A stretch of DNA of 64,000 bases from Hypomesus transpacificus (taxonomy: Eukaryota; Chordata; Actinopteri; Osmeriformes; Osmeridae), in NCBI RefSeq assembly GCF_021917145.1, contig NW_025813796.1, forward strand, positions 2,399,411-2,463,410, read 5' to 3'. The notes below the pieces were generated by a model, which worked only from the letters and a program-made list of their open reading frames with translations, ran no database searches and was not told the origin of the DNA. Numbering within the stretch: position 1 is the first letter of the stretch; every line of letters starts with the position of its first letter. A program made the translations under genes and the position numbers. Below, piece after piece: positions 7,401 through 10,400 of this stretch.

Positions 7401-10400
7401 AGCAATCCAACCTCATATTAGTGATCACATCTGAATGATGCTAGAAGGCACTGGCCAAACACAACAGTATTCTTTAGGAATATCTAGCTCAGTTGCGCTC
7501 TCTCCTGAAGTCATCTCGTATACAGCTCCCTAAGGGGCCATGAAAAAGGATGTTTAGAGGCACACTCCGTGCCAAATATTGATTCACAGCGTATTAGATC
7601 TAATTTGTCTCACCAGTTAATGTCTCTGTGTAAGGTTCATAAAAAAAACATTAGATCAGGCCAACATCTTTGTCCATTCGGAAAAAAAAAAATGTCTCTC
7701 TCTGGTAACTTCATAGAAACCCTCAGGGGAAATCGATCAGATCGTACGCAAGCCTTACCATCTACCAAGGTCCAGTGTTCATATGTGTAACACGGTTTGT
7801 TTCGAACCGACCAGGGAGAACTGATCGCTCCGAACACGGGAGGCTTTGTAGTGTTAATACTTCATCTGCTTTGCTCCGAAAACACATTAACGTGTGACCA
7901 GAGTACCTAACACGCTTGTAATGGGAACAAACGCAGGAAACACAAAAGTTTTATTCACACACCTGCACGCGCACACACACGTACAAACACACATGCCCGA
8001 GAAAACATACAGGCACAGACACACATGCACAAAAGCAATAGTAACACATCGCGGTGTACTTACCACAGTTTAAGGCACACACAAACACACACACACACTG
8101 AGACACACACAGATACACGGGTGACTCACCTTGAGGTCTCTGTGTACCACCCCCATCTGATGGCAGTGGAGCACGGCCTCCAGAATCTGCTGGATGCAAT
8201 GACTGCATGCAAACAGCAGGTGGGGCTGGTTAGTCTGAACACATCACAAGCCCCCCCCCCCGTTCACAGTCTCATGCACAGGCTGCAGCGCCTCAACATC
8301 TGCACACACACACACACACACACACTTTCTCTCGATCTATGACATGTCACGCACACAGAAGCACAAATTCGGACACATAGAAACGCCTTCAAGCACACAC
8401 GCACGTGCGCAGGGGACACACATACACACAGATCTACGAACATCAGTGTAAGGACCGGAACCTTCCAGGGAGATACTGCAGGAGGAGGTATGCTATTTTC
8501 AGGCAAGGGATGAACATGAGTCAGGCAGCGTAGGAGTGCACTGCAGTCTTGTTGAGGGAATGTGTGCGTGAGTGTGCGTGTCCGTGTGTAGTTGTCTGTA
8601 TTTAATGATGTCCTAACCTGATCATCCGTCTGTCGTATTTTTCAAAACATCATCAAGCACAGTGTGTGTCGTTTCTAGGGTTTCACAAATACGGCCACAG
8701 AGTTTTTTAACAGAGTTATCTGCATTAGTGACTGACACAAATCTTTCTTATACGCTGACACGTCCACACACACACAGCCTCACAGGCCGAGACAGAAGCT
8801 CAAGGTCACTGTTATTGACATTTGGAAATCATATTCTAGGTTAGAGAGAACAGTGAAACAAAAACATTTAAAAAGCAAGATCGGCAGATGAACAGACAGA
8901 CAGACGGAGACAGCAGGCACAAACGGGTCACAATCGGCACGGGCAAAAGTGGGCACGGGCAAACACAGACAAACCCATGTGCAGAGGTTGCAGGGTGGCA
9001 CATACGCACAAGGTGGAACACAAGCACACACCTTGAGGTCCCTGTGTACTATGCCATGTTGGTGAGTGTAACACACACAGTCTAGAATTTGATGGATACA
9101 GTGACTGTGGAGACAAAACGGAAAAAGGGAGAGAGATAAAGGAATGCAGAAAAGAAAGGGACGTGAAGATGAGGGGGGATGAAAAGACATTGGCCGGCCA
9201 TGTGGTGTGGGGATGTGGTGTTTGTGTGAGATGAGGTGCAGGCGATGTAGAGGTATGCAAAGACACAGAGAGGTCGGGGGAAAGAGAGAGTGACATGGGA
9301 AAGAGAGGAGGATGATGGTAAAAGTTCATCAGGCGAGGTTTTCAATCGTGAGGAGAGGATAACGGTGGGGTTAGGGTGAGCGAGAGGATGAGAAAAAAAG
9401 ACAGAAAGAAACAGAGAGAAAGAAAGAAAGGCAGTGCGAGTGGAATGGTAGACAAAAAGAGAGGGCAGACAGGAAAAAGGTGGGGGATGAAGGTGAGGAG
9501 AGAAAACCAGAAAATCAGATAGGAAGAATATTGGACAGTAACCCCACATACAGTACCAATAACAAACATGCCATGTACAAAGAGAGGAGACGGCTGGAAG
9601 AGAAAGGGGGAAAACTACACTAGACTACACAGGAAAACAGGCAAGGTAAAGTAAGGAAGTAAGGAAGATGAGAGAACATGAGAGCCACGGAGGAAGGAGG
9701 AGAGAACATATATATATATAGCAACCACAACAGGAAGGTACTAACAACAGAAGGGAGGACAGGAGTGGTGGTGGGGGGGGGATATTGGGAATGTTGCTTC
9801 CTCGTTTTTTTGTTTCCTTCTCTCCATTCTGTTTTAAATCCTCCCTCTCTCTCTCTCTCTCTCTCTCTCGCTCTCTCTCTCTCTCTCACTTTCTCTCTCG
9901 CCTCCACAAAACGCCTCCACAGTCAAATTGATTTAAGTCCCCCCTCTGAAGGGCTAGACGGTAAGTGTGTGTGTGTGAGTATGTACAACTATGTGTGTTA
10001 TGTTTTGTTCAAGAGTGTGTTTGTGTGTGTGTGTGTTCAGTGACATTTCAGTTTGCAAGGAAAAACTGGTAGGAACTTAGAAAAGTTGGTTTCCAACAGG
10101 GCAATGTCAAACTATCTACTGCAGAACAGGATGCTGAGCAATGGAAGTCTAAAGGGAAAGATGGTTACCTGGCATCAGCTTCACTGTAGTACTCTCTGGC
10201 CACAATATCTTCAAACAGTTCTCCTCCTGTCACCCTACAACATGGAGAGTAAAGGGTTAACACATGCTGCAAGGAATAATCCATCCACACACACATGCAC
10301 AGAGAGTAGGGGAATGTCCTCATTAGGGGGGATATCCCAACTGCAGGATTCTCTCTGACTGGGTTGCCATGGAGACAGGCTCCAGAGCAGGGGAGTGATG

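Follow-up and report, generated by a model that had tools for sequence, protein, structure and literature searches.

Two tandem copies of exon 6 in the kinase domain of camk2b of Hypomesus transpacificus: a candidate splice choice that looks older than the camk2 gene split

CaMKII beta is a kinase of memory, and splicing of CaMKII is discussed mostly for the linker. The closest described system in the kinase domain is human CAMK2D, for which PMC9741552 describes a substitution of tandem duplicated exons, drawn on the structure 6ayw as clustered residues next to the ATP site, and which PMC5740500 names with four mutually exclusive clusters. The locus analysed here, camk2b of a fish, is like this system in being a CaMKII gene with homologous tandem exons in the kinase domain, and a camk2d gene of the same fish (camk2d-I) has the exon 6 pair. 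It is unlike it in being another member of the family, and the passages of PMC9741552 place the human event beside the ATP site without an exon number; the human CAMK2D event may be the exon 6 pair. Among other Ser/Thr kinases, Mapk14, Mapk9 and Mapk10 carry mutually exclusive exons in the catalytic domain (PMC1431701, in part); the either-or exons within this domain are the common point, whereas the kinase family and the origin differ, and the likeness is drawn without comparing the positions in the fold. The FYN pair and the SRC-family paralogues (PMC9741552, again in part) resemble the case described below in that an exon pair is older than the gene copies, some of which kept one exon (subfunctionalisation), but these are tyrosine kinases and the region is the linker with the start of the kinase domain.

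The first-pass annotation of this DNA knew of no such pair described for vertebrate CAMK2B. Among the literature matches listed, and as far as their excerpts go, no report of a kinase-domain exon pair for CAMK2B was found, and a kinase-domain CaMKII exon pair is absent from the passages at hand of PMC13247117, PMC4465641, PMC7954323, PMC4801060, PMC13196872, PMC7991079, PMC5882894, PMC10971380, PMC6941411, PMC9013439 and PMC7969005 (the Camk2b event in the passage of PMC6941411 is exon 13). Since a kinase-domain exon choice is published for human CAMK2D (in the excerpt of PMC9741552), novelty is limited: the kind is already known, the camk2b member looks new, and what is fresh is the sorting of the copies across the family together with the conserved 6B acceptor. 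The analysis covers one genome and a short exon and is based on sequence alone.

The camk2b gene lies on the minus strand of the window (the whole 64,000-nt stretch of Hypomesus transpacificus DNA that was analysed), where tblastn and inspection by eye located exons 1-12. The names camk2a, camk2b, camk2d and camk2g are those that we presume from residues of the human enzymes. The exons referred to below are as follows.

10169..10234, minus strand: exon 5, upstream partner of 6A and 6B (tblastn)
9032..9104, minus strand: exon 6A, 73 nt, A-type segment; clusters with the A copies of other camk2 genes
8130..8202, minus strand: exon 6B, 73 nt, B-type segment; clusters with the B copies of camk2d-I and camk2a
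6347..6449, minus strand: exon 7, downstream partner; carries the stop met after joint inclusion or joint skipping
5934-5840, minus strand: exon 9 of camk2b

The first-pass annotation had placed two tandem 73-nt exons at 9032-9104 and 8130-8202, and the coordinates, the minus strand and the peptides were all confirmed, as was its statement that both match the phase of exons 5 and 7 and have open frames. These homologous exons sit between the same constitutive exons in equal phase; in each, the first base completes a serine codon begun in exon 5, 24 codons follow, and the exon ends with HRDLK in phase 0 before exon 7. With 6A alone or 6B alone the kinase frame is kept; with both or neither it shifts and a stop is met within exon 7 (the break on joint inclusion had likewise been foreseen), and in camk2d-I joint use or joint skipping also leads to a stop in exon 7. 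Because both or neither would end at this stop, one copy per mRNA would be enforced by the frame, and we infer that 6A and 6B are used in a mutually exclusive manner; the joint form would presumably be removed by nonsense-mediated decay. The frame makes joint use unproductive but is no proof that each of the single forms is produced.

Besides exon 6, no duplicated exon was found in camk2b (whole-window tblastn with CaMKII as query, E up to 10). Exon 12 (3979-4021, minus strand) encodes a 14-residue peptide identical to that of both camk2g genes of this genome, and camk2d-I has ATRNFS. On the plus strand, the window also holds an ORF with a BRCT domain (polm-like, 25890-26459) and one with a PurA domain (purb-like, 40824-41789), which we take to fit the human CAMK2B neighbourhood with POLM and PURB.

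Exons 6A and 6B are identical at 47 of 72 bases (65%) and differ at 8 of 24 residues, the 25 base differences falling on codon positions 1, 2 and 3 as 6, 4 and 15. Neutral simulation, run 20,000 times from each copy with an equal number of differences, gave eight or fewer residue changes in a fraction of 5e-5, and 45-47% of the runs were without a stop; a chance likeness of 6A and 6B is excluded. Since the simulation pools both lineages, a second comparison set 6A against the camk2d-I A copy: 7 of 24 residues differ, and changes are seen at 7.0 of 13.5 silent sites and at 9.0 of 58.5 replacement sites; the 6B protein is identical in three genes. The replacement divergence of 6A between camk2b and camk2d-I (pN 0.154) is the highest of ten kinase exons, the pooled value for the eight kinase exons outside exon 6 being 0.051. 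Judged from these substitutions, 6A is under constraint, though it is the fastest-changing of the ten kinase exons compared, and its high replacement divergence would fit a weakened constraint. The idea of a splice signal that constrains the silent sites of exon 6 finds no support: pS against camk2d-I is 0.52 for 6A and 0.55 for 6B, inside the range of 0.46-0.91 of eight other exons.

Exon 6A might be a fading relic of an ancient pair that is still used in camk2d, with camk2b splicing only 6B and 6A heading to loss as in camk2a; its rank as the fastest of the ten exons in replacement change, its seven residue differences set against the invariant 6B protein, and the loss of one copy from other camk2 genes would all agree with this. 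We consider it unlikely, as the frame of 6A is open, its acceptor and donor are good, its replacement change is well below the silent change, and the conserved element at the 6B acceptor (see below) was kept in camk2b too. Alternatively, inclusion of 6A with 6B could serve regulation, the frame-shifted mRNA being destroyed and the level of camk2b thereby tuned, as the exon 7 stop would allow; a pure poison exon, however, could do without a kinase-like peptide, and 6A is constrained in its residues; such a role seems very improbable.

The eight differing residues lie between positions 117 and 131 of the protein encoded in the window, which from the fold we take to be helix E and the turn before the loop, and several are at positions that also differ between A-type (gamma/delta) and B-type (alpha/beta) genes. 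The first-pass annotation expected a switch in helix E and the catalytic loop that would alter the kinase itself. This stands for helix E and the turn before the loop, which differ, and falls for the catalytic-loop motif: HRDLK is identical in both copies, so the switch would leave the catalytic residues unaltered.

The genome of the fish itself (437 Mb, 376 contigs) was searched with the 6A peptide, and the best 20 of at least 29 scored places were examined, the nine weakest being left out. Among these 20, at least eight CaMKII exon 6 copies in six genes were called by their residues and neighbouring exons.

camk2b, window: 6A and 6B
camk2d-I, C25: A copy (ESVNHCHQNGIV) then B copy, about 0.9 kb apart
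camk2a, C20: B only; exon 6 at L008:5697-5769
camk2d-II, C22: A only
camk2g-I, C13: A only
camk2g-II, C11: A only

At the scores printed, the A copy was not found in the exon 5-7 interval of camk2a, nor the B copy in that of camk2d-II and camk2g-I. The exon 6-7 intron of camk2g-II held no B copy; its exon 5 could not be located within 10 kb upstream, and the upstream intron was only part-covered. In the C11 camk2g gene, exon 9 (L032:6561-6645) matches in two frames one base apart, which points to a frame break in the gene or an assembly error. For camk2b, one gene was found by exon 6 in this genome; zebrafish has two camk2b.

The B copies of camk2b, camk2d-I and camk2a share 81-88% DNA identity and 24 of 24 residues. 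In the exon 6 tree (72 columns, 8 rows), the three B copies are separated from the five A copies (support 98/99); forcing 6A and 6B of camk2b into one clade costs 13.1 log units (p-AU 0.0044), and forcing the camk2d-I pair into one clade costs 14.4 units (p-AU 0.0375). By the tree and the identities, the copies are orthologous across genes, A with A and B with B. Seen at one locus only, the pair might have been a recent duplication confined to camk2b, or an artefact of assembly, but the silent differences between 6A and 6B are near saturation, the camk2b-only clade is rejected (p-AU 0.004), and the same arrangement is present on another contig, in camk2d-I, which makes this explanation scarcely credible. 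Because the B copies group together and the camk2b-only clade is rejected, the pair looks older than the camk2 gene split, after which it would have been sorted between the genes by loss; the simplest history would be that one exon was duplicated before the split and different copies were later lost. The split of the camk2 genes presumably goes back to the vertebrate genome duplications. When seven other exons were used for a tree of five of the six genes, the window gene joined camk2a with weak support (81/79).

Among the alignments printed against the Protein Data Bank, CaMKII delta chains carry the A segment and alpha and beta chains carry B. The chain 5fg8 (presumably fly) reaches 80 bits against the A segment and 71.6 against B, the chain 2bdw (K11E8.1, presumably worm) 68.5 with A and 63.8 with B, and 5ig1 is a tie (52.4 with A, 52.3 with B). 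As the fly and worm chains score higher with A, the A version looks ancestral and B derived.

Splice sites were scored with a weight matrix of base frequencies. Exon 6A has an acceptor of 12.1 and a donor of 9.3, and 6B an acceptor of 4.6 and a donor of 12.3, the median of 48 other camk2 acceptors being 10.4; camk2d-I has the same pattern (A acceptor 10.4, donor 8.4; B acceptor 4.8, donor 12.3). With GT-AG ends and these scores, both exons have predicted splice sites that are usable, as the annotation had stated, the 6B acceptor being weak. Since the B acceptor of camk2a, without a partner exon, is equally weak (4.8), acceptor weakness alone is no mark of regulation. The following elements are found before 6B.

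8206..8211, minus strand: TGCATG hexamer, -9 to -4 of the 6B acceptor, directly before CAG; putative RBFOX-type motif; same place in camk2d-I
8203..8232, minus strand: conserved intron stretch before 6B, 24 of 28 bases as in camk2d-I, AG left out
8229..8233, minus strand: CTAAC at the upstream edge of the conserved stretch, also in camk2d-I (by eye); a word that we regard as branch-point-like

Of 108 exon-by-gene-pair comparisons of intron ends, that of positions -30 to -3 before 6B in camk2b and camk2d-I gave the highest identity; the next value was 19 and the mean 9.6 (sd 3.8). The 6B intron ends of the two genes are nearly alike over 8203-8233 of the window (minus strand) and L005:9060-9089. 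The conservation of UGCAUG close to 6B is between two paralogues only, camk2b and camk2d-I; in camk2a, which has no A copy, TGCATG is absent at the B acceptor, which reads TGCATCAG. This sequence resembles the TGCATGCAG of the other two B copies minus one base, possibly by chance. A point against RBFOX control is that TGCATG is not unusual here: it occurs four times between exons 5 and 7 of camk2b where 0.96 would be expected, another copy is near the exon 8 acceptor, and the hexamer is above expectation in camk2g introns also. RBFOX has UGCAUG as its motif (PMC10971380), and a cassette exon of mouse Camk2g is reportedly under RBFOX regulation (PMC4801060). Two other selectors were rejected: the inverted repeats of the exon 5-7 interval consist largely of simple CA/TG and CT/GA runs and give no support to RNA pairing, and the 829 nt that separate 6A from 6B are too far for steric crowding.

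We consider it quite probable that a tandem duplicated pair, older than the camk2 split, offers two kinase-core versions that are used one at a time. Exons 6A and 6B would each encode a version of residues 114-137 in the kinase domain of CaMKII, the segment of helix E up to HRDLK, and the pair would have arisen before the vertebrate camk2 genes separated, with both copies retained in camk2b and camk2d-I, B in camk2a, and A in camk2g and camk2d-II. Support for the annotation's reading of an alternative kinase-core exon is now stronger, because camk2d-I carries the same pair and the copies appear to predate the gene split; the exon is also constrained, and its length penalises joint use. The choice is probably made at the 6B acceptor: bound to the UGCAUG next to the AG, RBFOX would block 6B, and the stronger 6A acceptor would win; without RBFOX, 6B with its strong donor would be used. 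Judged by the position of the motif, we put such selection of 6A by RBFOX a little below an even chance. Mammalian CaMKII beta is brain-rich; as, in addition, the solved beta chain is B-type, a block of B by RBFOX in neurons would be a poor fit. Both products should be active kinases, differing in helix E. More tentatively still, the helix E difference between alpha/beta and gamma/delta might be the frozen outcome of one ancestral splice switch, which camk2b and camk2d of this fish may still run; an RBFOX site at the 6B acceptor, older than the vertebrate genome duplications, would be its gate, and camk2a and camk2g would each have frozen one setting.

If the pair is used, one gene would yield two kinase-core versions, and differences credited to separate CaMKII genes would be testable by an exon swap within one gene. 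If true, this would be a clear case of a splice choice that is older than a gene family and was divided among its members.
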